Source: Symbiodinium natans
Lineage: Eukaryota; Sar; Dinophyceae; Suessiales; Symbiodiniaceae
Assembly: GCA_905221605.1 (NCBI GenBank)
Contig: CAJNDS010000191.1
Span: 62,001-126,000 of the forward strand
Length of the DNA: 64,000 bases
Reading direction: 5' to 3'
This document shows, piece after piece, positions 5,471 through 46,597 of the stretch; the stretch's first letter is position 1; every line of letters starts with the position of its first letter. Below the pieces are notes generated by a model that ran no database searches, had not been told where the DNA came from, and saw nothing but the letters and a program-made list of their open reading frames with translations. Position numbers and translations under genes: made by a program.

Positions 5471-5703
5471 CTTCACGGCCGAATTGAGGAGTTTAGGGTT
5501 TGAGCTGCACGTTGCTTGTGGATTTTGGGGGCCTTTGGGGCATAAGGGTTTCGGGTTGCAGTAAGCTGGTTGACACTAACCCTAAACCCTAAAACCTAAA
5601 CCCTCACCCCATCAACAATAACTTCTCCCATGGGTTCTCTTCGCTACCCCATAGGATCCCCACACCTGTTTTAGGGTTTCAGGGTGTTGGGTGAAGAGTT
5701 TAG

Positions 5704-5917: not shown

Positions 5918-6380
5918 CAGACGGAGAGAGAGGCAGGGCTTAGGGTTTGAGGTCTTGTCTTTAGGAGCAGGCTACTCCTAGACACCAACGCAAACCAATG
6001 ATGCCTGGTTGTGGGTAGCAGTGGTACCAGGTGTTGGTCCCATGAGCAGAGTTATGAACTAGCCAGCACAAATGGGCAAAATTTCGGGTCTGCCCAAGCC
6101 CCACATGGCCTGCATGTCCTCTTGACCTTCACGGGCGTCCGCCTCCGGATGATGGGAGGTCTTAACCCGACATTGCTACCCGACATCTGAGGCTCTGCGA
6201 TTGATGGGAGTCCTTTCTTGGGTCCTGGCTCTTTGCAGACTACACAGGGTGGGTTGCTATTGGACACCAACCGTGCGTCCCAGGTGACTTCGCAACTTCA
6301 TGCATTCGAGGTCTGTGGGCTTTCGACTTTTTGGGGCAGTGCCTCAGGAAGTGTGCTTCCGATGTTACCCGCGACACATC
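5918..6380. other. Single-copy flank of the array, no gene recognised
   Basis: Unique sequence between telomere-like repeats and the start of array homology. A 72-codon minus frame at 6052-6270 is open but has no recognisable family or paired splice sites. Confidence 0.4.
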
Positions 6381-6704
6381 AATGTCAGAGCGCCAGCCAC
6401 CCTTTTTCAAGATCGCGGGCTGGCGACGCGACGCCTGCACGTGTGTGAACTTGAAACAGGGACTTGTCGGTGCTGTGCGTTGCACATGTTGCACAGCGCT
6501 TCGAGCCTCCCGAGACGAGCCTCAGAGCAATCATCTGAGTCTGAAGTTCCCTCAATCTCGAGATTTGCGCTTGGAGCCACTTGGAGTCAACAGGAGATGC
6601 GCCCCTTGGGGGCGCACCAGACACCACAAACATCAACTATTCTAGGAAAACTTTTAAAGAATTGGACAGTCAGATGTAGCGGCCTTGCGCCCTATGCGCA
6701 CTCT

Positions 6705-8162: not shown

Positions 8163-8741
8163 GGCTGGATACGACTGTGTGGCAAAATCCTTCACGAACC
8201 CTTCTCTGTCTGCCAAAGCTCACAGCAAAAGAAACGACATCGGCAGGCCGATTTCTCTGACTCAGATCAGCTGATGACAAAGCAGCGCCCCAGCGTTTCT
8301 AGCAGCTTCTGACGTACATCGGCATACACCGGCGTAGCAGCACAGGCCCTCCCTCACCCCTTCCGCCGAGCCCCACATGCAAATAAGCCATCAATCTCAG
8401 AGCACCACTCACCATTTTCGAAGATCGCGGGCTGACGACGCGACAGCTGCACGATTGCTGCACGTGTGGACTTGAAACAGGGACGTGTCGGCTCTGTGCG
8501 TTGCACAGTGCTTGGAGCCTCCCAAGACGAGCCTCAGAACAATCAACTGAAGTTCCCTCAATCTCGAGACGGAGCTAGGATGAGGAGCCACTCGGAGTCA
8601 ATGGGAGACTCGCCCCTTGGGGGCGCGTCAGACACCAAAGACATCAACTCCTCCAAAGGAAAACTTAAAACAGGAAAACATAAAAGAATTGGGCAGTCAG
8701 ATTCAGCGGCCTTGCGCCCTGTGCAATCCTATGCGCACTCT

Positions 8742-10245
8742 TCAGGCCAAGGGCACAACGTACTGAGATTGCACCACGTAGGTCGGAGACACCAGAATGC
8801 GAGAGCCGTGGGGTGCGAGGTCAACCGACATCCCGTACAGGTCCTTCATCTGCTTGCAGAGGTTGTCGAAAGACTCGGGAGAAACCTGGTGGCAATCCTT
8901 GTCCACATGCCAAGTGATGACGTATGGAGAGCACACTGAGTTGTCGTGCGACTGGCCGGTGGTTGACCTGGGATCGAGAAGCTCAAGCGCGGGGTCGGAC
9001 TTATGATATCTACTTGAAAGGCATGGCGCCTCTTGGTGACGTGGTGCTTAAGGCTGAAAAGTTTCGGAGGGTTTTGTGTGGCTTGGGGTTTACGGCTAAA
9101 GCTCTGAGCTTGGGGTTTGGGGCTTGTACTGTCGGCTTAGGGTGTTGGACCCCACTTGAGCAAAGTGCTGCAGTGCTCTCACAGACTCAAAACTTATCGA
9201 CTTCACAAGGAAACAATGCCTCTTGCAAGCCACGTGGCCCAGAGTACATGACGGAGTTGTTATGTCCAACAACAGTCCAGCCATGCAGCAGATCGTTCAC
9301 AGTAGGCCCCCCGTTCACGATCTGGTAGATCTGGCCCTGCACCACGACCATCGGGTTCAGAAGGCCACGGCCGTTTGCGGCACCTGCAACACGAACACGA
9401 GGTCAAATGCTTTAAATTCGACATAAATAACTATAATAACCCTTTAAACATCAAGAGCTCGGCAAGCAGAGCCTCACTGAAGCAGCAACGAGTAAAACGC
9501 CGGCTATCAGAGACTGACACACACACACACACACACACACACGCGCACGCACACACACACACACACACACAAATCACACCTGCATTCGCACACGCGTTGA
9601 CTCCCCCATGCTGACGGTGACTGTGCGACAGGCAGGTCAGAGTGGTTGGCTGCATGCTCACGTGCCTCCCAAACCATCCGCGAGGAGGTCTGCATTCATG
9701 CCGTCCGAAGCATCGTTGTCGGTGCCGGCTGAAGAGTGCACGTAGTGGACCTCGTAGGACTTGCCGACCTGCACGTCACCCGTGCAGTGCTGAAAGGTGT
9801 ACGGCGTCATCTGCGCGTCAGTGAGCGTGTCCGTTGGGCACATGAAGCCAGGACGTGGGTTGCTGGCCAGGCGCCTGCCGGAGGAGGCCGCGTCGTACGC
9901 CATCGCATCGGTGTCGTTGTTGTAGGCATCGCTCTTATGCTCAGCCCCCAGGTGGAAGTGCACGTTCACCAGCGGCAGGAAGTTGGCCTGAGCATCCGTC
10001 AGCGTGGCCGCCTTCGGCACCATGCTGCCTGTAGCGCCAGTTGAGAGATCACGAGGCGTCTGAGGCTCGGCCGTGTTGCAAGCTGGCTTGTTGAAGTTGT
10101 ACGGGCAAGTTGGAGTGCCCGGCACGGGGTTGCTCAGCACCGTGGTGGGGGAGCCACAGCACTGCTCACTCTTGTAGAAATCCTTCACCTCGCCGCAGGT
10201 GACGGCGTCCGCCCCAACCACAAACAATGAGAACAAGCGCAGCAT
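8742..10245 (-). CDS. Delta-class carbonic anhydrase, S type, copy 2
   Basis: Exons 10245-9666, 9383-9239 and 8967-8742; 316 aa, same protein as copy 1. Observed exon differences (for example at the Pro codon in exon 2) are silent. Intron 1 carries the longest CA microsatellite of the array (about 9520-9570). The upstream spacer is about 580 bp, short enough for co-transcription with the next unit. Confidence 0.92.
9517..9570. repeat. CA microsatellite in intron 1 of copy 2
   Basis: Two runs of ACACAC separated by ACGCGCACGC; other copies have only 5-7 CA units here. Confidence 0.9.
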
Positions 10246-10824
10246 GGCTGGATACGACTGTGTGGCAAAATCCTTCACGAACCCTTCTCTGTCTGCCAAA
10301 GCTCACAGCAAAAGAAACAACATCGGCAGGCCGATTTCTCTGACTCAGATCAGCTGATGACAAAGCAGCGCCCAGCGTTTCTAGCAGCTTCTGACGTACA
10401 TCGGCATACACCGGTGTAGCAGCACAGGCCCTCCCTCACCCCTTCCGCCGAACCCCCACATGCAAATAAGCCATCAATCTCAGAGCACCACTCACCATTT
10501 GTGAAGATCGCGGGCTGACGACGCGACAGCTGGACGATTGCTGCACGTGTGGACTTGAAACAGGGACGTGTCGGCTCTGTGCGTTGCACAGTGCTTGGAG
10601 CCTCCCAAGACGAGCCTCAGAACAATCAACTGAAGTTCCCTCAATCTCGAGACAGAGCTAGGAAGAGGAGCCACTCGGAGTCAATGGGAGACGCGCCCCT
10701 TGGGGGCGCGTCAGACACCAAAGACATCAACTCCTCCAAAGGAAAACTTAAAACAGGAAAACACAAAAGAATTGGACAGTCAGATGTAGCGGCCTTGCGC
10801 CCTGTGCAATCCTATGCGCACTCT

Positions 10825-12341
10825 TCAGGCCAAGGGCACAACGTACTGAGATTGCACCACGTAGGTCGGAGACACCAGAATGCGAGAGCCGTGGGGTGCG
10901 AGGTCAACCGACATCCCGTACAGGTCCTTCATCTGCTTGCAGAGGTTGTCGAAAGACTCGGGGGAAACCTGGTGGCAATCCTTGTCCACATGCCAAGTGA
11001 TGACGTATGGAGAGCACACTGAGTTGTCGTGCGACTGGCCGGTGGTTGACCTGGGATCAGAAGCTCAAGAGCGGGGTCGGACTTATGATGTCTACTTGGG
11101 GTTTGTTGGGGGCCATGGCGCCTCTTGGTGACATGGTGCTTAAGGCTGAAAAGTTTCGGAGGGTTTTGTGTGGCTTGGGGTTTACGGCTAAAGCTCTGAG
11201 CTTGGGGTTTGGGGCTTGTACGTTCGGCTTAGGGTGTTGGACCCCACTTGAGCAAAGTGCTGCAGTGCTCTCACAGACTCAAAACTTATCGACTTCACAA
11301 GGAAACAATGCCTCTTGCAAGCCACGTGGCCCAGAGTACATGACGGAGTTGTTATGTCCAACAACAGTCCAGCCATGCAGCAGATCGTTCACAGTAGGCC
11401 CCCCGTTCACGATCTGGTAGATCTGGCCCTGCACCACGACCATAGGGTTCAGAAGGCCACGGCCGTTTGCGGCACCTGCAACATGAACACGCGCTCAGAT
11501 GCTTTCGACATAATAACTATAACGCTTGAAACATCAAGAGCTCTGGCAAGCAGTGCCTCACTGAAGCAGCAACCAGTACAATGTCGGCTATTGGAGACAC
11601 ACACACACACATCTCACACACCTCACACCTGCGTTGACTCACCCATGCTGACGGTGACTGTGTGACAAGCAGATCAGGGTGGTTGGCTGCATGCTCACGT
11701 GCCTCCCAAACCATCCGCGAGGAGGTCTGCATTCATGCCGTCCGAAGCATCGTTGTCGGTGCCGGCTGAGGAGTGCACGTAGTGGACCTCGTAGGACTTG
11801 CCGACCTGCACGTCACCCGTGCAGTGCTGAAAGGTGTACGGCGTCATCTGCGCGTCAGTGAGCGTGTCCGTTGGGCACATGAAGCCAGGGCGTGGGTTGC
11901 TGGCCAGGCGCCTGCCGGAGGAGGCCGCGTCGTACGCCATCGCATCGGTGTCGTTGTTGTAGGCATCGCTCTTATGCTCAGCCCGGCCGTGTTGCAAGCT
12001 GGCTTGTTGAAGTTGTACGGGCAAGTTGGAGTGCCCGGCACGGGGTTGCTCAGCACCGTGGTGGGGGAGCCACAGCACTGCTCACTCTTGTAGAAATCCT
12101 TCACCTCGCCGCAAGTGACGGCCTCCGCCCCGACAGCCATCGCCAGTGCCAACGCTAAGCCTGTGGCAACCTTGGGACGGGCCGAGGCGAGGGGCAGCAG
12201 CAGCGCCATCCACGGCGAGCCGCGGAATGCGGAGCCCGTCTCTTCGCCGGTTGTCTCGCAAAGGTCCACCTCCGGATCGTCAGGGCACGTGGCGATGGCG
12301 ACTTTGGCGAGGCAGGCGGTCACCGCAAGCAAGCGCAACAT
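10825..12341 (-). pseudogene. Delta carbonic anhydrase, L type, copy 3, broken by deletion
   Basis: Exon pieces 12341-11703, 11475-11331 and 11050-10825 keep the L-type start and all splice sites. Relative to the other copies, 121 bp are missing at the point CAGCCC|GGCCGTG (11984/11985). The loss takes out the segment from just after CNTA through VNVHFHLG, including the two histidines of HFH, and because 121 is not a multiple of three it also shifts the frame to an early stop. The product cannot be an active enzyme. Exons 2 and 3 still lack disabling changes, so the event is recent or the unit is kept uniform by conversion. Confidence 0.9.
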
Positions 12342-12636
12342 GGCTGGGGGATCAAGGACTCGTCACAACCTTCAGCTATGCCAGCTATGCAGGCCCTCTG
12401 ACTTGAAACACTCAGCGCGCACAAGCCTTCAGGAAGCTTCAGGCCTAGGAGTCTAGCTTCTGCGGCCGCGGGTGTAATTGCGAGCTTAAGCTCTGTAGGC
12501 TTCGGGGTTGGGGTCTTCAAGTCTTCAAGCAAACAGGGTCGCAAGGAACACCAGGTGTGAAGTTTTTGTATCCTTGCTCCGTGCATTCCAACTAAGAACC
12601 CTTGCGCTTCACACTCGCACGTCCTTTCGTGTGCTC

Positions 12637-12653
12637 GCGCGCGCGCGCGCGCG
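12637..12653. repeat. CG dinucleotide run in the L-type upstream region
   Basis: CTCGCGCGCGCGCGCGCG; also at about 17170-17188 and, shortened, 19672-19682. The length differs between L units. It lies about 300 bp upstream of the L-type ATG and could adopt Z-form; a regulatory role is only a guess. Confidence 0.7.
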
Positions 12654-13196
12654 AGGCATTCCCAAATTTAGGTTTTGGCTTGCTTTCGCCATCGTTCGCC
12701 CTTGCATGAGATTGCCACGCTCGAAGGGTGAGAACGTTTGTTCAACGACCAGTTATCGCTAATCGCCCTCGTAGTCATGTCAAAAGAACTCGCCAAAAGA
12801 AGAACAAACCCTTACAGGCAAACACGGCATCAATCTCTAGCGCCAATCGCCCTTTTTGAGTGCCCCACTCACCATTTTTGAAGATCGCGGGCTGACGACG
12901 CGACCGAGACAGCTGCACGTGTGGACTTGAAACAGGGACGTGTCGGCTCTGTGCGTTGCACAGTGCTTGGAGCCTCCCAAGACGAGCCTCAGAACAATCA
13001 ACTGAAGTTCCCTCAATCTCGAGACGGAGCTAGGATGAGGAGCCACTCGGAGTCAATGGGAGACTCGCCCCTTGGGGGCGCGTCAGACACCAAAGACATC
13101 AACTCCTCCAAAGGAAAACTTAAAACAGGAAAACATAAAAGAATTGGACAGTCAGATTCAGCGGCCTTGCGCCCTGTGCAATCCTATGCGCACTCT

Positions 13197-14667
13197 TCAG
13201 GCCAAGGGCACAACGTACTGAGATTGCACCACGTAGGTCGGAGACACCAGAATGCGAGAGCCGTGGGGTGCGAGGTCAACCGACATCCCGTACAGGTCCT
13301 TCATCTGCTTGCAGAGGTTGTCGAAAGACTCGGGAGAAACCTGGTGGCAATCCTTGTCCACATGCCAAGTGATGACGTATGGAGAGCACACTGAGTTGTC
13401 GTGCGACTGGCCGGTGGTTGACCTGGGATCGGAAGCTCAAGCGTGGGGTCGGACTTTTGATGTCTACTTGGGGTTTGTTGGGGGCCATTGCGCCTCTTGG
13501 TGACATGGTGCTTAAGGCTGAAAAGTCTCGGAGGGTTTCGTCGTCTGGCTTGGGGTTTACGGCTAAAGCTCTGAGCTTGGGGTTTGGGGCTTGTACTGTC
13601 GGCTTAGGGTGTTGGACCCCACTTGAGCAAAGTGCTGCAGTGCTCTCAGAGACTCAAAACTTAACGACTTCACAAGGAAACAATGCCTCTTGCAAGCCAC
13701 GTGGCCCAGAGTACATGACGGAGTTGTTATGTCCAACAACGGTCCAGCCATGCAGCAGATCGTTCACAGTAGGCCCCCCGTTCACGATCTGGTAGATCTG
13801 GCCCTGCACCACGACCATAGGGTTCAGAAGGCCACGGCCGTTTGCGGCACCTGCAACATGAACACGCGCTCAGATGCTTTCGACATAAATAACTATGACA
13901 ACCCTTTAAACATCAAGAGCTCGGCAAGCAGTGCCTCACTGAAGCAGCAACGAGTAAGACGGCGGCCATTGGAGACTCACACACACACACACATCTCAAA
14001 CCCGCGTTTGCGCACGCGTTGGCTCACCCATGCTGACGGCGACTGTGTGACAAGCAGATCAGGGTGGTTGGCTGCATGCTCACGTGCCTCCCAAACCATC
14101 CGCGAGGAGGTCTGCATTCATGCCGTCCGAAGCATCGTTGTCGGTGCCGGCTGAGGAGTGCACGTAGTGGACCTCGTAGGACTTGCCGACCTGCACGTCA
14201 CCCGTGCAGTGCTGAAAGGTGTACGGCGTCATCTGCGCGTCAGTGAGCGTGTCCGTTGGGCACATGAAGCCAGGACGTGGGTTGCTGGCCAGGCGCCTGC
14301 CGGAGGAGGCCGCGTCGTACGCCATCGCATCGGTGTCGTTGTTGTAGGCATCGCTCTTATGCTCAGCCCCCAAGTGGAAGTGCACGTTCACCAGCGGCAG
14401 GAAGTTGGCCTGAGCATCCGTCAGCGTGGCCGCCTTCGGCACCATGCTGCCTGTTGCGCCAGTTGAGAGATCACGAGGCGTCTGAGGCTCGGCCGTGTTG
14501 CAAGCTGGCTTGTTGAAGTTGTACGGGCAAGTTGGAGTGCCCGGCACGGGGTTGCTCAGCACCGTGGTGGGGGAGCCACAGCACTGCTCACTCTTGTAGA
14601 AATCCTTCACCTCGCCGCAGGTGACGGCGTCCGCCCCAACCACAAACAAGGAGAACAAGCGCAGCAT
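13197..14667 (-). CDS. Delta-class carbonic anhydrase, S type, copy 4
   Basis: Exons 14667-14088, 13850-13706 and 13422-13197; 316 aa identical in reading to copy 1. Silent changes include CAC TTG for CAC CTG inside HFHLG and a Gly-Ala codon change near residue 71. The block 12921-14060 is almost identical to the matching part of copy 1 and of copy 6, showing mosaic exchange between units. Confidence 0.92.
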
Positions 14668-15219
14668 GGCTGGATACGACTGTGTGGCAAAATCCTTCGC
14701 GAACCCTTCTCTGTCTGCCAAAGCTCACAGCAAAAGAAACAACATCGGCAGGCCGATTTCTCTGACTCAGATCAGCTGATGACAAAGCAGCGCCCAGCGT
14801 TTCTAGCAGCTTCTGAGGTACATCGGCATACACCGGTGTAGCAGCACAGGCCCTCCCTCACCCCTTCAGCCGAACCCCCACATGTAAATAAGCCATCAAT
14901 CTCAGAGCACCACTCACCATTTGTGAAGATCGCGGGCTGACGACGCGACAGCTGGACGATTGCTGCACGTGTGGACTTGAAACAGGGACGTGTCGGCTCT
15001 GTGCGTTGCACAGTGCTTGGACCCAAGACGAGCCTCAGAACAATCAACTGAAGTTCCCTCAATCTCGAGCTAGGATGAGAAGCCACTCGGACTTAATGGG
15101 AGATGCGCCCCTTGAGGGCGCATCATACACCAAAAATGTCAACTCCTCCAGGAAAACTTAAAAGAATTGGACAGTCAGATGTAGCGGCCTTGCGCCCTGT
15201 GCAATCCTACGCGCACTCT

Positions 15220-16876
15220 TCAGGCCAAGGGCACAACGTACTGAGATTGCACCACGTAGGTCGGAGACACCAGAATGCGAGAGCCGTGGGGTGCGAGGTC
15301 AACCGACATCCCGTACAGGTCCTTCATCTGCTTGCAGAGGTTGTCGAAAGACTCGGGAGAAACCTGGTGGCAATCCTTGTCCACATGCCAAGTGATGACG
15401 TATGGAGAGCACACTGAGTTGTCGTGCGACTGGCCGGTGGTTGACCTGGGATCGGAAGCTCAAGCGTGGGGTCGGACTTTTGATGTCTACTTGGGGTTTG
15501 TTGGGGGCCATGGCGCCTCTTGGTGACATGGTGCTTAAGGCTGAAAAGTCTCGGAGGGTTTCGTCGTCTGGCTTGGGGTTTACGGCTAAAGCTCTGAGCT
15601 TGGGGTTTGGGGCTTGTCCTGTCGGCTTAGGGTGTTGGACCCCACTTGAGCAAAGTGCTGCAGTGCTCTCAGAGACTCAAAACTTAACGACTTCACAAGG
15701 AAACAATGCCTCTTGCAAGCCACGTGGCCCAGAGTACATGACGGAGTTGTTATGTCCAACAACGGTCCAGCCATGCAGCAGATCGTTCACAGTAGGCCCC
15801 CCGTTCACGATCTGGTAGATCTGGCCCTGCACCACGACCATAGGGTTCAGAAGGCCACGGCCGTTTGCGGCACCTGCAACATGAACACGCGCTCAGATGC
15901 TTTCGACATAATAACTATAACACTTTAAACATCAAGAGCTCTGGCAAGCAGTGCCTCACTGAAGCAGCAACCAGTAAAACGTCGGCCATTGGAGACTCAC
16001 ACACACACACACATCTCAAACCCGCGTTTGCGCACGCGTTGACTCACCCATGCTGGCGGTGACTGTGTGATAAGCAGATGAGGGTTGTTGGCATTGTTGG
16101 CTACATGCTCACGTGCCTCCCAAACCATCCGCGAGGAGGTCTGCATTCATGCCGTCCGAAGCATCGTTGTCGGTGCCGGCTGAAGAGTGCACGTAGTGGA
16201 CCTCGTAGGACTTGCCGACCTGCACGTCACCCGTGCAGTGCTGAAAGGTGTACGGCGTCATCTGCGCGTCAGTGAGCGTGTCCGTTGGGCACATGAAGCC
16301 AGGACGTGGGTTGCTGGCCAGGCGCCTGCCGGAGGAGGCCGCGTCGTACGCCATCGCATCGGTGTCGTTGTTGTAGGCATCGCTCTTATGCTCAGCCCCC
16401 AGGTGGAAGTGCACGTTCACCAGCGGCAGGAAGTTGGCCTGAGCATCCGTCAGCGTGGCCGCCTTCGGCACCATGCTGCCTGTAGCGCCAGTTGAGAGAT
16501 CACGAGGCGTCTGAGGCTCGGCCGTGTTGCAAGCTGGCTTGTTGAAGTTGTACGGGCAAGTTGGAGTGCCCGGCACGGGGTTGCTCAGCACCGTGGTGGG
16601 GGAGCCACAGCACTGCTCACTCTTGTAGAAATCCTTCACCTCGCCGCAAGTGACGGCCTCCGCCCCGACAGCCATCGCCAGTGCCAACGCTAAGCCTGTG
16701 GCAACCTTGGGACGGGCCGAGGCGAGGGGCAGCAGCAGCGCCATCCACGGCGAGCCGCGGAATGCGGAGCCCGTCTCTTCGCCGGTTGTCTCGCAAAGGT
16801 CCACCTCCGGATCGTCAGGGCACGTGGCGATGGCGACTTTGGCGAGGCAGGCGGTCACCGCAAGCAAGCGCAACAT
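15220..16876 (-). CDS. Delta-class carbonic anhydrase, L type, copy 5
   Basis: Exons 16876-16117, 15873-15729 and 15445-15220; 376 aa. From VTCGEVKDFY onward it equals the S type. The N-terminus differs: a first signal-like segment MLRLLAVTACLAKVAIA, an acidic region with Cys (CPDDPEVDLCETTGEETG), then SAFRGSPW and a second hydrophobic segment (GLALALAMAVGAEA). A two-part leader of this kind is compatible with targeting to a membrane-bound compartment such as the plastid, but the acidic middle is unlike a normal transit peptide, so location is open. The ATG at 16876 has stops upstream. Confidence 0.92.
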
Positions 16877-17731
16877 GGCTGGGGGATCAAGGACTCGTCA
16901 CAACCTTCAGCTATGCCAGCTATGCAGGCCCTCTGACTTGAAACACTCAGCGCGCACAAGCCTTCAGGAAGCTTCAGGCCTAGGAGTCTAGCTTCTGCGG
17001 CCGCGGGTGTAATTGCGAGCTTAAGCTCTGTAGGCTTCGGGGTTGGGGTCTTCAAGTCTTCAAGCAAACAGGCTCGCAAGGAACACCAGGTGTGAAGTTT
17101 TTGTATCCTTGCTCCGTGCATTCCAACTAAGAACCCTTGCGCTTCACACTCGCACGTCCTTTCGTGTGCTCGCGCGCGCGCGCGCGCGAGGCATTCCCAA
17201 ATTTAGGTTTTGGCTTGCTTTCGCCATCGTTCGCCCTTGCATGAGATTGCCACGCTCGAAGGGTGAGAACGTTTGTTCAACGACCAGTTATCGCTAATCG
17301 CCCTCGTAGTCATGTCAAAAGAACTCGCCAAAAGAAGAACAAACCCTTACAGGCAAACACGGCATCAATCTCTAGCGCCAATCGCCCTTTTTGAGTGCCC
17401 CACTCACCATTTTTGAAGATCGCGGGCTGACGACGCGACCGAGACAGCTGCACGTGTGGACTTGAAACAGGGACGTGTCGGCTCTGTGCGTTGCACAGTG
17501 CTTGGAGCCTCCCAAGACGAGCCTCAGAACAATCAACTGAAGTTCCCTCAATCTCGAGACGGAGCTAGGATGAGGAGCCACTCGGAGTCAATGGGAGACT
17601 CGCCCCTTGGGGGCGCGTCAGACACCAAAGACATCAACTCCTCCAAAGGAAAACTTAAAACAGGAAAACATAAAAGAATTGGACAGTCAGATGTAGCGGC
17701 CCTGCGCCCTGTGCAATCCTATGCGCACTCT

Positions 17732-19376
17732 TCAGGCCAAGGGCACAACGTACTGAGATTGCACCACGTAGGTCGGAGACACCAGAATGCGAGAGCCGTG
17801 GGGTGCGAGGTCAACCGACATCCCGTACAGGTCCTTCATCTGCTTGCAGAGGTTGTCGAAAGACTCAGGAGAAACCTGGTGGCAATCCTTGTCCACATGC
17901 CAAGTGATGACGTATGGAGAGCACACTGAGTTGTCGTGCGACTGGCCGGTGGTTGACCTGGGATCGGAAGCTCAAGCGCGGGGTCGGACTTATGATGTCT
18001 ACTTGGGGTTTGTTGGGGGCCATGGCGCCTTATGGTGACATGGTGCTTAAGGCTGAAAAGTCTCGGAGGGTTTCGTCGTCTGGCTTGGGGTTTACGGCTA
18101 AAGCTCTGAGCTTGGGGTTTGGGGCTTGTACTGTCGGCTTAGGGTGTTGGACCCCACTTGAGCAAAATGCTGCAGTGCTCTCAGAGACTCAACACTTAAC
18201 GACTTCACAAGGAAACAATGCCTCTTGCAAGCCACGTGGCCCAGAGTACATGACGGAGTTGTTATGTCCAACAACAGTCCAGCCATGCAGCAGATCGTTC
18301 ACAGTAGGCCCCCCGTTCACGATCTGGTAGATCTGGCCCTGCACCACGACCATAGGGTTCAGAAGGCCACGGCCGTTTGCGGCACCTGCAACATGAACAC
18401 GCGCTCAGATGCTTTCGACATAAATAACTATAACACTTGAAACATCAAGAGCTCTGGCAAGCAGTGCCTCACTGAAGCAGCAACCAGTACAATGTCGGCT
18501 ATTGGAGACACACACACACACATCTCACACCCGCGTGTGCACACGCGTTGGCTCACCCATGCTGACGGTGACTGTGTGACAAGCAGATCAGGGTTGTTGG
18601 CTACATGCTCACGTGCCTCCCAAACCATCCGCGAGGAGGTCTGCATTCATGCCGTCCGAAGCATCATTGTCGGTGCCGGCTGAGGAGTGCACGTAGTGGA
18701 CCTCGTAGGACTTGCCGACCTGCACGTCACCCGTGCAGTGCTGAAAGGTGTACGGCGTCATCTGCGCGTCAGTGAGGGTGTCCGTTGGGCACATGAAGCC
18801 AGGACGTGGGTTGCTGGCCAGGCGCCTGCCGGAGGAGGCCGCGTCGTACGCCATCGCATCGGTGTCGTTGTTGTAGGCATCGCTCTTATGCTCAGCCCCC
18901 AAGTGGAAGTGCACGTTCACCAGCGGCAGGAAGTTGGCCTGAGCATCCGTCAGCGTGGCCGCCTTCGGCACCATGCTGCCTGTAGCGCCAGTTGAGAGAT
19001 CACGAGGCGTCTGAGGCTCGGCCGTGTTGCAAGCTGGCTTGTTGAAGTTGTACGGGCAAGTTGGAGTGCCCGGCACGGGGTTGCTCAGCACCGTGGTGGG
19101 GGAGCCACAGCACTGCTCACTCTTGTAGAAATCCTTCACCTCGCCGCAAGTGACGGCCTCCGCCCCGACAGCCATCGCCAGTGCCAACGCTAAGCCTGTG
19201 GCAACCTTGGGACGGGCCGAGGCGAGGGGCAGCAGCAGCGCCATCCACGGCGAGCCGCGGAATGCGGAGCCCGTCTCTTCGCCGGTTGTCTCGCAAAGGT
19301 CCACCTCCGGATCGTCAGGGCACGTGGCGATGGCGACTTTGGCGAGGCAGGCGGTCACCGCAAGCAAGCGCAACAT
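17732..19376 (-). CDS. Delta-class carbonic anhydrase, L type, copy 6
   Basis: Exons 19376-18617, 18385-18241 and 17957-17732; 376 aa, the same protein as copy 5. Changes seen (ACC for ACG in the CPTDTL stretch, CCT for CCC in SPESF) are silent. The upstream L-type spacer has a shorter CG run than those of copies 3 and 5. Confidence 0.92.
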
Positions 19377-20207
19377 GGCTGGGGGATCAAGGACTCGTCA
19401 CAACCTTCAGCTATGCCAGCTATGCAGGCCCTCTGACTTGAAACACTCAGCGCGCACAAGCCTTCAGGAAGCTTCAGGCCTAGGAGTCTAGCTTCTGCGG
19501 CCGCGGGTGTAATTGCGAGCTTAAGCTCTGTAGGCTTCGGGGTTGGGGTCTTCAAGTCTTCAAGCAAACAGGCTCGCAAGGAACACCAGGTGTGAAGTTT
19601 TTGTATCCTTGCTCCGTGCATTCCAACTAAGAACCCTTGCGCTTCACACTCGCACGTCCTTTCGTGTGCTCGCGCGCGCGCGAGGCATTCCCAAATTTAG
19701 GTTTTGGCTTGCTTTCGGCATCGTTCGCCCTTGCATGAGATTGCCACGCTCGAAGGGTGAGAACGTTTGTTCAACGACCAGTTATCGCTAATCGCCCTGT
19801 AGTCATGTCAAAAGAACTCGCCAAAAGAAGAACAAACCCTTACAGGCAAACACGGCATCAATCTCTAGCGCCAATCGCCCTTTTTGAGTGCCCCACTCAC
19901 CATGTTTGAAGATCGCGGGCTGACGACGCGACCGAGACAGCTGCACGTGTGGACTTGAAACAGGGACGTGTCGGCTCTGTGCGTTGCACAGTGCTTGGAG
20001 CCTCCCAAGACGAGCCTCAGAACAATCAACTGAAGTTCCCTCAATCTCGAGACGGAGCTAGGATGAGGAGCCACTCGGACTCAATGGGAGATGCGCCCCT
20101 TGAGGGCGCATCACACACCAAAAATGTCAACTCCTCCAGGAAAACTTAAAAGAATTGGACAGTCAGATGTAGCGGCCTTGCCCCCTGTGCAATCCTACGC
20201 GCACTCT

Positions 20208-21672
20208 TCAGGCCAAGGGCACAACGTACTGAGATTGCACCACGTAGGTCGGAGACACCAGAATGCGAGAGCCGTGGGGTGCGAGGTCAACCGACATCCC
20301 GTACAGGTCCTTCATCTGCTTGCAGAGGTTGTCGAAAGACTCGGGAGAAACCTGGTGGCAATCCTTGTCCACATGCCAAGTGATGACGTATGGAGAGCAC
20401 ACTGAATTGTCGTGCGACTGGCCGGTGGTTGACCTGGGATCGGAAGCTCAAGCGCGGGGTCGGACTTATGATGTCTACTTGGGGTTTGTTGGGGGCCATG
20501 GCGCCTTATGGTGACATGGTGCTTAAGGCTGAAAAGTCTCGGAGGGTTTCGTCGTCTGGCTTGGGGTTTACGGCTAAAGCTCTGAGCTTGGGGTTTGGGG
20601 CTTGTACTGTCGGCTTAGGGTGTTGGACCCCACTTGAGCAAAGTGCTGCAGTGCTCTCAGAGACTCAAAACTTAACGACTTCACAAGGAAACAATGCCTC
20701 TTGCAAGCCACGTGGCCCAGAGTACATGACGGAGCTGTTATGTCCAACAACAGTCCAGCCATGCAGCAGATCGTTCACAGTAGGCCCCCCGTTCACGATC
20801 TGGTAGATCTGGCCCTGCACCACGACCATAGGGTTCAGAAGGCCACGGCCGTTTGCGGCACCTGCAACATGAACACGCGCTCAGATGCTTTCGACATAAA
20901 TAACTATAACACTTGAAACATCAAGAGCTCTGGCAAGCAGTGCCTCACTGAAGCAGCAACCAGTACAATGTCGGCTATTGGAGACACACACACACACATC
21001 TCACACCCGCGTGTGCACACGCGTTGGCTCACCCATGCTGACGGTGACTGTGTGACAAGCAGATCAGGGTTGTTTGCTACATGCTCACGTGCCTCCCAAA
21101 CCATCCGCGAGGAGGTCTGCATTCATGCCGTCCGAAGCATCATTGTCGGTGCCGGCTGAGGAGTGCACGTAGTGGACCTCGTAGGACTTGCCGACCTGCA
21201 CGTCACCCGTGCAGTGCTGAAAGGTGTACGGCGTCATCTGCGCGTCAGTGAGCGTGTCCGTTGGGCACATGAAGCCAGGACGTGGGTTGCTGGCCAGGCG
21301 CCTGCCGGAGGAGGCCGCGTCGTACGCCATCGCATCGGTGTCGTTGTTGTAGGCATCGCTCTTATGCTCAGCCCCCAAGTGGAAGTGCACGTTCACCAGC
21401 GGCAGGAAGTTGGCCTGAGCATCCGTCAGCGTGGCCGCCTTCGGCACCATGCTGCCTGTTGCGCCAGTTGAGAGATCACGAGGCGTCTGAGGCTCGGCCG
21501 TGTTGCAAGCTGGCTTGTTGAAGTTGTACGGGCAAGTTGGAGTGCCCGGCACGGGGTTGCTCAGCACCGTGGTGGGGGAGCCACAGCACTGCTCACTTTT
21601 GTAGAAATCCTTCACCTCGCCGCAGGTGACGGCGTCCGCCCCAACCACAAACAATGAGAACAAGCGCAGCAT
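20208..21672 (-). CDS. Delta-class carbonic anhydrase, S type, copy 7
   Basis: Exons 21672-21093, 20861-20717 and 20433-20208; 316 aa. It has the only replacement found among intact copies: Asn to Ser in exon 2 (GHNSSVMY instead of GHNNSVMY, residue 236). Other differences (AAA for AAG in FYKSE, AAT for AAC before SVCSPY) are silent. Confidence 0.92.
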
Positions 21673-22226
21673 GGCTGGATACGACTGTGTGGCAAAATCC
21701 TTCACGAACCCTTCTCTGTCTGCCAAAGCTCACAGCAAAAGAAACAACATCGGCAGGCCGATTTCTCTGACTCAGATCAGCTGATGACAAAGCAGCGCCC
21801 AGCGTTTCTAGCAGCTTCTGACGTACATCGGCATACACCGGTGTAGCAGCACAGGCCCTCCCTCACCCCTTCCGCCGAACCCCCACATGCAAATAAGCCA
21901 TCAATCTCAGAGCACCACTCACCATTTGTGAAGATCGCGGGCTGACGACGCGACAGCTGGACGATTGCTGCACGTGTGGACTTGAAACAGGGACGTGTCG
22001 GCTCTGTGCGTTGCACAGTGCTTGGAGCTTCAAGACGAGCCTCAGAACAATCAACTGAAGTTCCCTCAATCTCGAGCTAGGATGAGGAGCCACTCGGACT
22101 CAATGGGAGATACGCCCCTTGGGGGCGCATCACACACCAAAAATGTCAACTCCTCCAGGAAAACTTAAAAGAATTGGACAGTCAGATGTAGCGGCCTTGC
22201 GCCCTGTGCAATCCTATGCGCACTCT

Positions 22227-23867
22227 TCAGGCCAAGGGCACAACGTACTGAGATTGCACCACGTAGGTCGGAGACACCAGAATGCGAGAGCCGTGGGGTG
22301 CGAGGTCAACCGACATCCCGTACAGGTCCTTCATCTGCTTGCAGAGGTTGTCGAAAGACTCGGGAGAAACCTGGTGGCAATCCTTGTCCACATGCCAAGT
22401 GATGACGTATGGAGAGCACACTGAGTTGTCGTGCGACTGGCCGGTGGTTGACCTGGGATCAGAAGCTCAAGCGCGGGGTCGGACTTATGATGTCTACTTG
22501 GGGTTTGTTGGGGGCCATGGCGCCTCTTGGTGACATGGTGCTTAAGGCTGAAAAGTTTCGGAGGGTTTCGTCGTCTGGCTTGGGGTTTACGGCTAAAGCT
22601 CTGAGCTTGGGGTTTGGGGCTTGTACTGTCGGCTTAGGGTGTTGGACCCCACTTGAGCAAAATGCTGCAGTGCTCTCAGAGACTCAACACTTAACGACTT
22701 CACAAGGAAACAATGCCTCTTGCAAGCCACGTGGCCCAGAGTACATGACGGAGTTGTTATGTCCAACAACAGTCCAGCCATGCAGCAGATCGTTCACAGT
22801 AGGCCCCCCGTTCACGATCTGGTAGATCTGGCCCTGCACCACGACCATAGGGTTCAGAAGGCCACGGCCGTTTGCGGCACCTGCAACATGAACACGCGCT
22901 CAGATGCTTTCGACATAATAACTATAACGCTTGAAACATCAAGAGCTCTGGCAAGCAGTGCCTCACTGAAGCAGCAACCAGTACAATGTCGGCTATTGGA
23001 GACACACACACACACATCTCACACACCTCACACCTGCGTTGACTCACCCATGCTGACGGTGACTGTGTGACAAGCAGATCAGGGTGGTTGGCTGCATGCT
23101 CACGTGCCTCCCAAACCATCCGCGAGGAGGTCTGCATTCATGCCGTCCGAAGCATCGTTGTCGGTGCCGGCTGAGGAGTGCACGTAGTGGACCTCGTAGG
23201 ACTTGCCGACCTGCACGTCACCCGTGCAGTGCTGAAAGGTGTACGGCGTCATCTGCGCGTCAGTGAGGGTGTCCGTTGGGCACATGAAGCCAGGACGTGG
23301 GTTGCTGGCCAGGCGCCTGCCGGAGGAGGCCGCGTCGTACGCCATCGCATCGGTGTCGTTGTTGTAGGCATCGCTCTTATGCTCAGCCCCCAGGTGGAAG
23401 TGCACGTTCACCAGCGGCAGGAAGTTGGCCTGAGCATCCGTCAGCGTGGCCGCCTTCGGCACCATGCTGCCTGTAGCGCCAGTTGAGAGATCACGAGGCG
23501 TCTGAGGCTCGGCCGTGTTGCAAGCTGGCTTGTTGAAGTTGTACGGGCAAGTTGGAGTGCCCGGCACGGGGTTGCTCAGCACCGTGGTGGGGGAGCCACA
23601 GCACTGCTCACTCTTGTAGAAATCCTTCACCTCGCCGCAAGTGACGGCCTCCGCCCCGACAGCCATCGCCAGTGCCAACGCTAAGCCTGTGGCAACCTTG
23701 GGACGGGCCGAGGCGAGGGGCAGCAGCAGCGCCATCCACGGCGAGCCGCGGAATGCGGAGCCCGTCTCTTCGCCGGTTGTCTCGCAAAGGTCCACCTCCG
23801 GATCGTCAGGGCACGTGGCGATGGCGACTTTGGCGAGGCAGGCGGTCACCGCAAGCAAGCGCAACAT
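22227..23867 (-). CDS. Delta-class carbonic anhydrase, L type, copy 8
   Basis: Exons 23867-23108, 22880-22736 and 22452-22227; 376 aa, as copies 5 and 6. This is the upstream edge of the array: its 5' region matches other L units only as far as GCTTCTGCGGCCGC at about 23997, then changes to unrelated sequence, so its promoter region may differ. A related short motif (GTAATTACGGGCTTAAGC) reappears about 200 bp further on at 24202. Confidence 0.92.
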
Positions 23868-23997
23868 GGCTGGGGGATCAAGGACTCGTCACAACCTTCA
23901 GCTATGCCAGCTGTGCAGGCCCTCTGACTTGAAACACTCAGCGCGCACAAGCCTTCAGGAAGCTTCAGGCCTAGGAGTCTAGCTTCTGCGGCCGCAG

Positions 23998-24720
23998 GGT
24001 CTAGGGATGTGGAACAACGTGGGGTTGCTGTTTGCGTTAAAGTTTAGTTAAAGTCTGTAGAACCTGGGGGTTCCGGTGCGGCATCTTTCCTGAAACAGAT
24101 TTTCCTCCGAGCACTATGAAATACAGCATGAATGAGAGCATCAACACTAAAGCTGCCCCTAGTTTAGCACCTCAGGTTTAGAACCTCGGATGCAGGGCAA
24201 TGTAATTACGGGCTTAAGCCCCTTTGGCTTCGGGGTACACCCCAACTGGAAAACCACATAACTTCGGCATACTTCGAAGGCATTCGCAAACCCCAGAGTT
24301 CTCACCAACTGAATTCGAACCAGCCCTTTCCATTTTGAGCCTCGGAATCTGCAGTCATTGGCGCGTCTGCCTAGCAAGGGTGGCTTTTCTCTTGGTCCCT
24401 TCACATGTGCCCTTAGTTTGTTGGGGAACCCCTATATACCCCCGCATATACCCTATATAACCCAAGGGCGCATACTTCAGAACCCTAAAAAAGATAAGGG
24501 GCCATATAGTAAGGGACCCTTAGATTTTCATTTTACGCTCTAAAACGCTGAGTGGGGATCAGCAGGTGTTAAGTTCGCGACCTAGGGGTCGGTTGTGTTT
24601 CGAGACTGGCGCGCAGGGCCGTTTTGATTATCTTCGGACCCGTACTGGACCCTAAACCCCAAAACCCCCTAGAGCCGAAAAGCCAGCGCAAACCCTGAAC
24701 ATTCAACTTAGTAAGCCACC
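23998..24720. other. Array flank, no gene recognised
   Basis: Unique sequence with short open frames in several phases and no convincing exon. Confidence 0.4.
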
Positions 24721-30188: not shown

Positions 30189-30304
30189 CCCTAAACCCTA
30201 AACCCTATTGCTAAACCCTAAACCCTAAACCCTAAGCCCTAAGCCCTAAGCCCTAAGCCCTAAGCCCTAAGCCCTAAGCCCTAAACCCTAAACCCTAAAC
30301 CCTT
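30189..30304. repeat. Telomere-variant array with a homogeneous CCCTAAG core
   Basis: CCCTAAA units, then about eight consecutive CCCTAAG units, then CCCTAAA again. The variant is clustered, not scattered. Confidence 0.9.
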
Positions 30305-35297: not shown

Positions 35298-35456
35298 CTA
35301 TTGCTGGGGCTCGTAATTGAAGATCCACGGCACGAAGAGCGACTTGATAACTGCAATGAGGATAGCAATCCCGTAGGAGAGCAGCCCCGTGAGGTAGGAC
35401 ATCACCAATCGCGTCCCAACCTTAGCACCGCTTGGTATGCTTTCGCTAACTCGTAG
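35298..35456 (-). CDS. Candidate exon with membrane helices
   Basis: Minus strand frame GTRLVMSYLTGLLSYGIAIL then IAVIKSLFVPWIFNYEPQQ and stop. The hydrophobic span would make one or two membrane helices. It could be the C-terminal part of the membrane protein whose exons lie at 38-45 kb. A second minus-strand frame is open in the first third, so the 5' boundary is uncertain. Confidence 0.4.
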   Translation of the reverse strand, partial: LRVSESIPSGAKVGTRLVMSYLTGLLSYGIAILIAVIKSLFVPWIFNYEPQQ

Positions 35457-35853
35457 AGCATGCTCCGAACGAGATCTTTAAGGCCCAAGGGCTCTATATT
35501 AGGGTGGATATAGGTTGCTCTGGGGGGGGGGGGAACCCTAACCCTAAACCTTAAACCCTAAACCCCAAACCCCATCAAGCCCTAAATAGGGTGTCAAGCA
35601 GCGGGAATTCCCAGGAAGGTCAGCTGCATCCCATGGATCGATTCAAAGCTAAGCAGATCTTGAACTGCAAGGTTTTGAACCTTGGCGGCTCTTCACACTC
35701 TTCAACCCACAAAAAACCCCTCAACCCTAACCTTCAAACACTCATGTCTTTGCTCTTTTTTTGTTGGGGGGGGGGGGGTTACCAGTGAATTTACCAGCTG
35801 CTTAGTGTTCCTAGGGCTTCAGGCTTTAACCTTTGAAGGCTGTTGTTGGCCAT

Positions 35854-36482: not shown

Positions 36483-36749
36483 ATATGGGAATATACAAAA
36501 GAACATCCCCAGGGCAGGGAAGACTGTGCAGCTGCAGCTGGGGCACTTCGGGCAGCTGACCAATCACAGGGGCTGCCAACGACAGCGCCTGACGTAACGG
36601 AATCGGCACTGGAGTTAGGGTTTAGGGTTTAGGGTCTAGGGCTTAGGGTATAGGGTCTAGGGTTTAGGGTTCCTTGGGACATTTTGTATTTTCACTTGTT
36701 GGGTTTAAGAGGCTCATATTCAGGAATATTCTTCAGAGGTTTTCAGGAT

Positions 36750-37914: not shown

Positions 37915-38106
37915 CCCCCAAACAACAAGTCTTGCTGACATCATGCTTCCTTGGGTTATGTCAATAGATTTCCTGACGTGGCCCAAGTTGAAAAGTCTCA
38001 GCGCAACAGCAGCTGAGCCCTGCACGTCATTGACGTGTGACCCGTACACCATGAAGCCGAGCATGAAGGTCCCGAAGAATATTCCTGAACTTGCGCGTGC
38101 AGCTTC
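37915..38106 (-). CDS. Probable exon of multi-pass membrane protein, pore-like segment
   Basis: Acceptor CTCCCCTAG|GAAGCTG opens EAARASSGIFFGTFMLGFMV then YGSHVNDVQGSAAVALRLFN. A membrane helix followed by a Gly-Ser-His turn and a second hydrophobic helix recalls the S5-pore segment of polycystin-type channels, but the resemblance is weak and no selectivity motif is seen. Donor is probably at the G-run near 37915. Confidence 0.5.
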
Positions 38107-38400
38107 CTAGGGGAGTCTTAGAAGCCAAAAGAGGGTTGCAAAACCTTCTTCTTTAAAAGGCTTGCTTGCTCGACCACTGAGGGAACGCCTTAGCTTGAGG
38201 GCTTCCGTGGTCGGGCCGCGAAGGCTGGGCGTTGGGGGATGGGCCCTGCTACGAAAAGCCTGAGCTGTTCGCACTACCTTGGACCTTGACACATGGCAGG
38301 CTCACGACCAATCTCGAGGGCCACGTCAGCCAGGGAAGGTCTACCTTGCCCAGTACTTCCGTGGCGGGTGGCTGTTCAAGTCCTGCCAGTCCTGCAGAAT

Positions 38401-38499
38401 TCAGACAAAGACTCCGTCGATCACTGCGTAGGCGATGGTAGGGAATGCTATGCCACCTGTAGCCTCCAGCACAAGGGTGCCGACCACTATGACGACCAC
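38401..38499 (-). CDS. Probable exon, membrane helix
   Basis: Acceptor AGAGCCTAG|GTGGTC opens VVVIVVGTLVLEATGGIAFP then TIAYAVIDGVFV before a stop. One clear membrane helix. Probably the same gene as its neighbours at 38.6-38.9 and 37.9-38.1 kb. Confidence 0.45.
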   Translation of the reverse strand: MVVIVVGTLVLEATGGIAFPTIAYAVIDGVFV

Positions 38500-38633: not shown

Positions 38634-38932
38634 TTACAGCAGACTTGGGGGGGCTGTGGAAAGCAGAGCAGTCTGTCCCAAGAGCCGAGTCGCGATCACG
38701 AAGCCCAGATACAGCACAGGAGACACCAGCATCAGAGTCCAGCTCGTGTCTGCGAAGATCGCAGATCGGGTTCGGAACCACCAGAAGAAGGTGTCGGTTG
38801 CAGCAGGGTTGTCCACAGGCTGGAGCAAAAAATCCGGATATTTTTCAAGCTCGTAAAAGTTGCGCATGTCTTGGTGCGTGATACTGGCACGCAAGTGGAA
38901 AAGCCTGTAGAGCATCTGGGCTTGGCGGTGCT
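38634..38932 (-). CDS. Probable exon of multi-pass membrane protein
   Basis: Minus strand frame HRQAQMLYRLFHLRASITHQ, DMRNFYELEKYPDFLLQPVD and FRTRSAIFADTSWTLMLVSP followed by VLYLGFVIATRLLG. A cytosolic helix-rich segment leads into at least one membrane helix. It is one of the longest convincing reading frames outside the array. Acceptor GAGCAG|AGCACC allows an in-frame join to the exon at 39108-39208 through a GC donor (GGAC|GCGC). Family not identified. Confidence 0.55.
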
Positions 38933-39107
38933 CTGCTCCACCAATGCTCCTTGGCTTCGGGATGCCCGTTCTGGACCATGCTGAATCAAATCCCACTTGG
39001 GCCTTTGCCCAAAATCGGGGACCCCCAATTTCCCCTAACAATCTACAGCCCATACTATAGGAACCCAAAATAGGTACCCGATGTTGAGGTGCTCAAGCGC
39101 GTCCAGG

Positions 39108-39208
39108 ATACCAGTGGTGGAACATGAGCAAGTCATTGAGTTGATTGAGCCTATGAGCTGCCGACCACACCTGCAGCACGATGTAAGGAAGGCTGCAGAA
39201 GACAAGGC
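39108..39208 (-). CDS. Probable exon, membrane helix
   Basis: Acceptor CAGCCCAG|GCCTTG opens LVFCSLPYIVLQVWSAAHRL then NQLNDLLMFHHWYPG. One membrane helix followed by an amphipathic stretch. The exact donor is uncertain (GC at 39107 fits the frame of the next exon). Confidence 0.45.
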
Positions 39209-39641
39209 CTGGGCTGCTTGGGTCTCAGGCGGTTGAAGGGCTTAGTAGGGCTTTTAGGGCTTTTAGGGCTTAGGGTGCCGTGGAGTGTTGCAAAGGCGGG
39301 AGCTACATCGTGCTGCGCACTCTGTTTTACTCAGCCACAGTCTGGGGCTGGCATGAAACTTCAGGGGCATGCCACTTAGAGGCTTCTAGGGGCACCCAGG
39401 CGGTGAAGAACTCTCAGAAGGCACCGCAAAAGGCCTCCAGAAAGTCTCTGAGATATCAAAGGCCAACCCGCAGGGCCAAACGGGTTCGGGGCCAGGAAGC
39501 CTCGAACAAAAACGCGTCCAGGCAACTGGCCCGACACCGTTTGGCAAGAGCCATCCGAGTCGAGGGGTGTGGGAGGCACTGGTTTAAGCCTGGAGGTTAA
39601 GGAAACTTCTGATAACCAACTCAAGCCACCGAAAGCACTGC

Positions 39642-39983
39642 CTCTACCCAACACGGCCGAGGTGCCATAAATGAGTGATGAGAAGGCGAAGCCGCAAAAG
39701 TATGACATGATCCACCAGTATTTCGGGGAATACACCGCAACATGGGCCTGGGTTAGCGTTTAGGGTTTAGGGTTTAGTGTTTAGGGTCTAGGGTCTAGGG
39801 TTTAGGGGGTAGGGGGTAGGGGGTTTAGGGCCTAGGGGAGTTTAGGGTTTAGGGGTAGGGTTTAGGGTTTAGGGATTAGGGATTACACCCAACATGGGCC
39901 TGCGTCTGATTGCCTGTGACCTCATCGTAGAAGCCCCAGCTCGGCAAGGTGGCATTCGTGATATCCAGCATAAAATCATTGAC
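39642..39983 (-). CDS. Two exons of a multi-pass membrane protein split by a telomere-repeat intron
   Basis: Exon A 39983-39900 is bounded by GAGCCCAG|GTC and ACGCAG|GCC and encodes exactly 28 codons, VNDFMLDITNATLPSWGFYD then EVTGNQTQ, with two N-glycosylation sequons (NAT, NQT), so probably extracellular. Exon B 39747-39642 continues in phase 0, AHVAVYSPKYWWIMSYFCGF then AFSSLIYGTSAVLGR, a membrane helix. The join is in frame and makes structural sense: an outside loop entering a helix. The donor of exon B is likely AGAG|GCAG. The intron between is described separately. Confidence 0.6.
39748..39899 (-). other. 152-nt GC-AG intron made of telomere-like repeats, with direct repeats at its ends
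   Basis: Donor ACGCAG|GCCCATGTTGGG, acceptor TAACCCAG|GCCCATGTTGCG. The sequence GCCCATGTTG(C)GGTGT is present both at the start of the intron and at the start of the next exon, a direct repeat of about 16 bp. Almost everything between is degenerate CCCTAAA. Confidence 0.65.
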
Positions 39984-40130
39984 CTGGGCTCTGGCCCCTA
40001 AACCCTATAAACCCTATAAACCCTACAAACCCTACAAACCCTAAAAACCATATAAACCATATAAACCCCATAAACCCTATAAACCCTATAAACCCTAGAC
40101 CTTATAAATCCTATAAATCCTCTAAGCCCG
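39984..40130. repeat. Telomere-like CCCTATAAA array
   Basis: Runs of CCCTATAAA and CCCTACAAA, an 8-9 bp expansion of the telomeric unit. It lies in the intron upstream of exon A. Confidence 0.85.
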
Positions 40131-42664: not shown

Positions 42665-43169
42665 CTCGGGATGGAGAGATTGTGGGCCTTTCGGGGTTCG
42701 CTGCTTTTTGTAGGCTTCTGGGGGTTTTTAGGGTTTAGGGCTTTCAGGGGTTTGGGGTCCGGAGTCCGGCTTCTAGGTGTTTGGGTCATAGGATCTTGGG
42801 CCGGGCTTCTGGGCTTGTAGGATGTTAGGGGTTTCGTAGGGTCGGGCTTCTGGGTTTGTTCAGCTGTTGCGCTGTAGGGCCAGCGGGGCTGTCATGCGTA
42901 CATTTGAGGCCCTGGTACCCTAAAGCCTAAACCTAAACCCCAAACCCAAAACCCTAAACCCTTTGGCTGGCCTCTCCGAGACCCCAAGGGCAAGCGACGG
43001 TTCTCCACCCTGATAGTCTAAGCTCCACAACCCCCCAGACCTGGCCGACACTGAATCTATGGGTTTAGGGTTTAATTGGGGTTCAGGGGTTGGGTTCAAG
43101 ATGGGTTTAGGGTTTAGGGTTTAAAGCTTAGGGTTTAGAGTTGTTGAATCGAGGCAGCGAAGTTCAGAC

Positions 43170-44779: not shown

Positions 44780-44819
44780 CTCTTTGGGATTTAGGGTTTA
44801 GGGTTTAGGGGGAACCCTG

Positions 44820-44975: not shown

Positions 44976-45147
44976 AGTTTAGGGTTTAGGGTTAGGGTTT
45001 AGGGTTAGGGTTTAGGGTTTAGGGTTAGGGTTTAGGGTTTAGGGTTTAGGGTTTAGGGTTTAGGGTTTAGGGTTTAGGGTTTAGGGTTTAGGGTTTAGGG
45101 TTTAGGGTTTAGGGTTTAGGGTTTAGGGTTTAGGGTGTAGGGTTTAG
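44976..45147. repeat. Longest interstitial (TTTAGGG)n array of the window
   Basis: About 170 bp, mainly perfect 7-mers with some GTTAGGG units at the left end. Intronic with respect to the membrane protein gene. Confidence 0.95.
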
Positions 45148-45615: not shown

Positions 45616-46597
45616 AATCATGAAGCAGGCTCACAGACATTCGCCCCATACAGTGAGGCGAGCATGCTGAGGGCTCACTTAGAGCTCGGCGCCTGGATCC
45701 TGGCGGATCTCGCTTCCGCCTCGCCCTGCTCGGTGCTCGGGGCCATGTTTGCCGCAGAGCGCTCGAACTAAACTTTGGGCTCACGCTTGGCTCAGGTCCT
45801 AAGGACGCCTGCAGGTGGAGCCGATAAGCGTGATGCCGCAGAGGCATCGCGGAGATCAGATCGTACAAATCGTGGCATCGAAGCCGCAAATCCAAGCCCT
45901 AAACCTCAAGCCCCCTTGCCCCGCACAAAAACAAGCCCTTGAACCCTACACTCATTAACCCAGTGTTACCACGTGGAGCTCGAATAGGCTGGTGCCTTGA
46001 AAGCCTTGAACAGCTTGTTAAAGTCTTAAAGAAGATCCTCATCATCAGAGGAAGTGGGGGAGGAAGTGGGGGAAGTAGAAAACACGTTTGCGCACTGCGC
46101 ACCCCAAGGAGCTAACGAGCCAAATGACTTGATGGTTTGCGGTGAAGGCTTCGTACGCACACGATAAGGCACCTAGGGATTATGGTTGGGGGCTTAGGGT
46201 TTTTGGTTTTTAGGGGTTTTAGGATGCAGAGTGCAAGACTCTCAAGGGCTGCCAGGTAGCCTTGAACCCTACCAACAAAAATCCCCCCCCCCCCCCACCC
46301 CCCTCTAAATCCTACACCCAAAGCGCTAACACCTAGGATCACGGGACCCTGACCTCTAAAACAATAATCCATGCTCCGAGGTAGCTCTAACCCTTGGATT
46401 TTATAAGGGGAGTGAGTGCTGTCCCAATACGTTACCGACTCAGCACCTAAGTATTAGTTTTCAAGCATGGGTCCCGAGTCTCAGCAATAAGCCCCCCAAC
46501 CCTGTAGATAAACTGACCCTAAACCCTAAACCCTAAACCCCAAACCCTGTAGATTGACTGAGACCTTGAACCTGAAGATGCTCTGAAAACTGTGGGT

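Follow-up and report, generated by a model that had tools for sequence, protein, structure and literature searches.

A candidate intron of telomere-like repeats flanked by duplicated exon sequence in a gene of Symbiodinium natans

In a membrane-protein-like gene of Symbiodinium natans, two exons are separated by 152 nt that consist almost entirely of degenerate CCCTAAA, the complement of the unit TTTAGGG that is given as the telomere repeat of dinoflagellates. The question arises how such DNA came to lie within a coding sequence, and how the gene could still be read. We have analysed the locus within a window of 64 kb, i.e. the whole stretch of DNA under study, and started from a sequence-only reading in which telomeric sequence had been inserted into an exon and had thereby become an intron.

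The gene and its candidate intron

The gene lies on the minus strand and can be followed over nine exons. Exon A (39900..39983; 84 nt, VNDFMLDITNATLPSWGFYDEVTGNQTQ), which ends with CAGACGCAG, is supported by its frame and translation, by its alignment with P0002, a homologue of 125 aa from an ENA record, and by a codon-usage score of 13.9. Exon B (39649..39747) opens with AHVAVYSPKYWW, the sequence after the intron being GCCCATGTTGCGGTGTATTCCCCG, and aligns with P0002 at E=1.8e-11, its 3' end being uncertain (about 39642-39650). Exon C (39112..39209) matches P0002 at E=9e-14; its 5' end is uncertain, and it closes with the codons for MFHHW, with which P0001 begins, the annotated protein that is recorded as 'unnamed protein product [Symbiodinium natans]'. 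To P0001, exons D to I (38949-35301) are identical, namely D (38694..38949), E (38415..38499), F (38026..38084), G (36547..36588), H (35603..35680) and I (35301..35420), the last of which ends with the codons EPQQ followed by a stop. The intron borders were placed by hand from P0001 with a preference for AG/G (the slash marks the joint), and the border of the intron discussed here was placed from P0002.

The identity between P0001 and the joined query is 100% across 72% of the query, and since P0001 starts with MFHHW, within exon C, the annotated S. natans model lacks exons A and B and most of exon C. P0001 and P0002 were the only relatives of the gene in protein searches, neither the gene pieces nor the joined protein matched a Pfam family, and two PDB matches (E 0.5-0.96) were dismissed as not meaningful. 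Neither exon A nor exon B contains a stop. In a codon-usage scan that was trained without these two exons, exon A was detected and exon B stayed below the threshold of 9; it also picked up other exon-like stretches at the edges of arrays, for which there was no homologue.

The sequence-only reading had joined exon A (39983-39900) in phase 0 to an exon B that starts at 39747, and the coordinates, sequence and frame of this joint are as it described them. The outer limits that it gave are less firm. By homology, the start methionine of exon A is probably encoded at 39971-39969, and 39983 may consequently mark a 5'UTR or trans-splice border and not a cis acceptor, while the end of exon B can be placed only approximately.

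Between these exons lies the candidate spliceosomal intron (39748..39899; 152 nt, minus strand), which would be removed in vivo between a CAG/GC donor and a CAG/G acceptor. It starts with GCCCATGTTGGGTGTAATCCC and continues as degenerate CCCTAAA as far as AACGCTAACCCAG. A telomere-like array at 39750..39885, with TTTAGGG on the plus strand (TRF period 7, 78% matches), covers 89% of it, in agreement with the earlier description as nearly all telomere-like repeat. If the intron is read through, an in-frame stop follows at the eighth codon of the insert. The joined exons A and B, by comparison, align with P0002 without a gap over the joint, so that removal between the two AG/GC borders gives the expected protein, and from this collinearity, precisely these two sites should be the ones at which the insert is excised from the message. 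Offsets within the 13-nt repeat described below would yield the same mRNA; by inspection, only CAG/GC..CAG/G gives an intron that ends in AG.

These borders, with AG/G, a GC donor and a frame that is restored upon removal, fit the dinoflagellate spliceosomal type. In Symbiodiniaceae, GC donors are frequent; a review puts GC or GA donors at 25-74% (PMC11453091), and the introns of Symbiodinium peridinin-protein genes are given with the borders MWG/gy..sag/GY (PMC4201569).

The direct repeat at the intron ends

The two ends of the intron carry copies of the same sequence. Copy 1 (39879..39905, minus strand; 27 nt) comprises the end of exon A and the 5' end of the intron, and copy 2 (39726..39753, minus strand; 28 nt) comprises the 3' end of the intron and the start of exon B. 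A repeat finder reported 16 nt at 94% with a spacing of 152, which bears out the 16-bp repeat noted from the sequence. The gapped alignment of ACGCAGGCCCATGTTG-GGTGTAATCCC with ACCCAGGCCCATGTTGCGGTGTATTCCC extends over 28 columns with 25 matches, 2 mismatches and 1 gap, and its exact core of 13 nt, CAGGCCCATGTTG, occurs in the window at these two places only. On either side the repeat adjoins the array with zero gap. The exonic copy keeps the frame and the intronic copy is one base short. Of the 152 nt, 136 belong to the array, 14 to repeat copy 1 and 2 to repeat copy 2; no remnant of an older intron was seen within them, and if the array and one repeat copy are taken away, an uninterrupted exon results.

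A repeat of this length is unusual for the gene. At its six other introns, exact runs extend over 1, 0, 1, 0, 0 and 0 nt to the left of the joint and over 1, 1, 2, 1, 2 and 1 nt to the right, i.e. over 1-3 nt altogether, compared with 3 nt to the left and 10 nt to the right, or 13 exact nt, that are shared before the gap at the focal intron. Exact 13-mer direct repeats with a spacing of 20-400 were found 20 times in the window when tandem repeats, the carbonic anhydrase array (see below) and positions 2215-3300 were left out; of these, 11 fall within 4.1-5.2 kb and 3 consist of C/G runs. When the focal spacing was slid across the non-repeat DNA of the window in steps of two bases, 11 of 12,288 positions, the focal site included, reached at least the focal anchored score. 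A score of at least 9 was counted at 24 positions; the 20 listed comprise the focal site, 15 positions at 4.1-4.3 kb, three at 38216-38220 and one at 28844. Among the 89 telomere-like blocks of the window, the focal block has the top score. The in-register microhomology that is expected of telomerase amounts, by eye, to a weak single G at the focal junction.

How the intron may have arisen

From our point of view, the balance of the evidence moderately favours the reading that the 152 nt represent a spliceosomal intron, one that was absent before telomeric repeats were inserted into the exon. A staggered break would have opened the exon of this S. natans gene, and the broken end would have received TTTAGGG repeats, either through telomerase or by capture. 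Filling in and joining of the ends would then have duplicated about 17-28 bp of the exon on the two sides. The duplicated CAG/G, at an AG/GC border of the dinoflagellate type, could thus serve as donor on one side and as acceptor on the other, and because it provides both splice sites, splicing would remove the array together with one copy and restore the old frame. Lastly, the intronic copy would have decayed by loss of a base, the exonic copy retaining the frame. That an uninterrupted exon is left after subtraction of the array and one copy is predicted by insertion with target duplication and not by later filling of an intron. The proposal that the duplicated AG/GC supplied both predicted splice sites holds, with CAG/G on either side and a removal that is collinear with P0002.

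Several observations speak against the insertion, namely that P0001 omits exons A and B, that exon B falls under the codon-scan threshold, that the microhomology is confined to one G, and that duplications around the other arrays are modest with a masked control and not above an unmasked one. Further, one paper mentions earlier descriptions of identically repeated borders of dinoflagellate introns (PMC7789003), so that some border repetition may have other causes.

One could also imagine that an old intron occupied the site and was later filled with telomeric repeats, the direct repeat being due to chance or to a separate duplication. Telomeric arrays do indeed make up 11%, 13% and 29% of the larger introns of the gene, between exons F and G, G and H, and H and I. 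However, the block and the repeat copies account for all 152 nt, which leaves no older intron sequence, and the repeat represents exon sequence on both sides and adjoins the array, and we hence regard such filling as unlikely. The intron could also have been made when a short exonic segment with AG/G was duplicated in tandem, telomeric sequence coming between the copies afterwards. A parallel exists close by, since a direct repeat at 41202-41170 and 41122-41090 bounds intron-like DNA with AG/GT in each copy; given that this course would need two events and that the array starts and stops exactly at the repeat copies, we consider it quite improbable.

The element could further belong to a family of introners, i.e. 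transposable introns, with a telomere-like body, as introners with target duplications are known from Symbiodinium microadriaticum and other dinoflagellates (PMC9860276, PMC11453091). Like these (PMC9860276, PMC7789003), the focal element would have entered an exon and obtained a splice site from the target duplication. Unlike them, it shows no terminal inverted repeats (the 11 inverted-repeat pairs listed for 39600-40060 do not include one with its arms at the two intron ends), no 3-9 bp duplication and no repeated body other than the telomeric one. Its repeat of 13-28 nt compares with the 4-bp duplications that accompany terminal inverted repeats in S. microadriaticum (PMC9860276) and with 3-9 bp in families with marks of DNA transposons, even though terminal inverted repeats and a 3-9 bp duplication are not found in all published introner families, and the 89 arrays of the window have no common flanks or ends and share nothing beyond telomeric units. 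Membership in such a family thus appears very improbable. Least of all do we expect that the upstream region is a gene fragment, either decaying or unused, in which the repeat is never spliced: P0001 does begin within exon C, but exons A to C align with P0002, the codon use of exon A is coding-like, and exons A and B are free of stops.

The insertion with target duplication that we favour has counterparts in two processes known apart from each other. In mammals, telomeric repeats are added at double-strand breaks (PMC2246262; PMC7215372), and the insertion is accompanied by a target duplication at 6 of 130 rodent and 4 of 25 primate loci (PMC2246262) and at 3 of 66 horse loci, where it was interpreted as the result of staggered breaks (PMC7215372). 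The arrays of the window resemble these interstitial telomeric sequences in that an array lies at an arbitrary site, sometimes with a target duplication, and without common flanks; the focal site has both the internal tandem TTTAGGG units and the duplication, which is the minority outcome. Human arrays are absent from exons, in the view of the authors because the insert would bring stop codons (PMC7215372). The focal insert differs from them in that it lies in coding sequence and is apparently removed by splicing.

The other process is intron gain by break repair. In Daphnia, 33 such cases have flanking repeats of 4-12 bp (PMC4202315), and one Daphnia intron resembles mitochondrial 16S, i.e. 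DNA captured from elsewhere (PMC3443670). The focal intron is likewise bounded by a direct repeat of neighbouring exon sequence, longer than at the six other introns, and the inserted DNA can in both settings come from another place; its repeat, at 13 exact and up to 28 nt, exceeds those of the break-repair introns. Direct repeats alone are nevertheless weak proof of this mode of gain, since in Drosophila repeats of at least 5 bp are present at 25% of the gained introns and at 26% of the conserved ones (PMC3443670). The main texts of PMC4202315 and PMC3443670 contain no telomeric terms, and no report of a telomere-built intron was among the matches listed from the open-access literature on intron gain, interstitial telomeres and dinoflagellate repeats. 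Each of the two processes, telomeric insertion at staggered breaks on the one hand and break-repair intron gain on the other, is known by itself, and their joining is unreported within these open-access matches. With both component processes already in print, the 'new route' of intron gain that had been proposed becomes a new combination of two known routes, whereas the proposed telomeric insertion with target duplication is supported at this locus by the collinearity with P0002, the lack of a remnant and the duplicated CAG/G.

Telomere-like arrays across the window and their meaning

The window holds 89 merged telomere-like blocks with 5,852 bp in total, merged from 44 plus- and 46 minus-oriented segments. 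They are spread in both orientations over 1-5916 and 24649-63922; none lies between 5,917 and 24,648, where delta carbonic anhydrase genes stand in tandem at about 6-24 kb (5950-24640; PF10563, E=2.5e-17). In one base-shuffled window, of which one strand was scanned, 0 blocks were found. The carbonic anhydrase array has two N-terminal forms with open frames of 214 and 262 aa. Rfam gave 0 matches at gathering scores, and no relative was found among the viral contigs compared.

Whether duplications accumulate around these arrays depends on the control. The first impression was of a strong enrichment, with a score of at least 10 in 8 of 89 arrays compared with 0.71 expected from mispaired flanks (40 nt outside, 6 inside), and this was weakened by a control of the same spacing. 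Without masking of low complexity, the latter gave no excess; with masking, it gave a modest one (75-78 blocks by flank length), where 6%, 2%, 1% and 10% of the control sets reached the mean score for flanks of 20, 25, 30 and 40 nt, respectively, and most single thresholds were not significant. The excess was clearer in an anchored test of 79 of the 89 blocks (10 were dropped for other tandem repeats in their flanks), in which scores of at least 6 were obtained by 7 blocks compared with 1.3-1.45 expected at a slack of 3, by 8 compared with 2.7-3.1 at a slack of 6, and by 12 compared with 4.8-5.7 at a slack of 10. Since the excess is modest, absent or clearer according to the control, the mechanism is one that we infer rather than demonstrate. 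In view of the modest excess under the stricter controls, we claim a duplication for the focal array and name those at 46516-46548 and 30189-30303, with imperfect direct repeats of about 12-23 nt at their borders, as likely further cases; 350-430 and 42727-42758 are weaker candidates.

The arrays of the window have no flanking motif in common (none of 20 boundary positions exceeds 0.09 bit), which argues for many separate additions rather than for a single transposon family. The 22 similar pairs of 60-nt flanks among the matches listed consist of telomere sequence or of overlapping flanks of neighbours.

Some further places deserve mention in their own right. At 42543-42414 (minus strand), a possible second telomere-rich intron, by eye about 76% telomeric, has TTTCAGG at both ends; its removal would join ..LGKPWLFQ/AVVRGSDRG.. 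in frame, the donor would be GG or GT, and no homologue was found. The pair at 41202-41170 and 41122-41090 (minus strand) is a 33-nt direct repeat (30/33 alike) around 47 nt with CCAG/GT in each copy; having no clear array, it looks like an intron made by duplication. The end of another membrane-protein-like gene, with no Pfam match, lies at 44964-44457 (minus strand), where one exon-like stretch begins 1 nt from the array 44783-44810 and another is 13 nt away from the array 44977-45147. CCTTGAACCCTAC at 45937-45949 has a second copy at a spacing of 323 nt.

One could speculate that telomeric repeats, recurrently added at broken DNA, are a source of new introns in S. natans, which we put forward as a tentative idea that is at present doubtful. 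The C-rich transcript strand would be pre-adapted to this role in that it offers a branch-site-like CUAAAC every 7 nt as well as stop codons; CUAAAC, present in each perfect unit, is what we take to be close to the branch-site motif. Owing to the in-frame stops, an unspliced insert would fail, whereas a spliced one might work at once, and with the lax borders of dinoflagellates almost any duplicated CAG/G could serve as both splice sites.

The origin of new introns is an open question, and a review points out that the proposed mechanisms leave many gained introns unexplained (PMC3443670). In the present case, the source can still be recognised, and the insert and the target duplication cover every base. 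If our reading is true, the locus provides a one-case answer to the remark that telomeric inserts are missing from exons (PMC7215372), in that inserts of this kind can be rescued through splicing. As the 64 kb hold 89 arrays, a genome-wide test is feasible in species that have long-read cDNA, and PacBio IsoSeq has been made for S. natans (PMC8045281). Should the recurrent route prove true, it would help to explain the intron richness of dinoflagellate genes.
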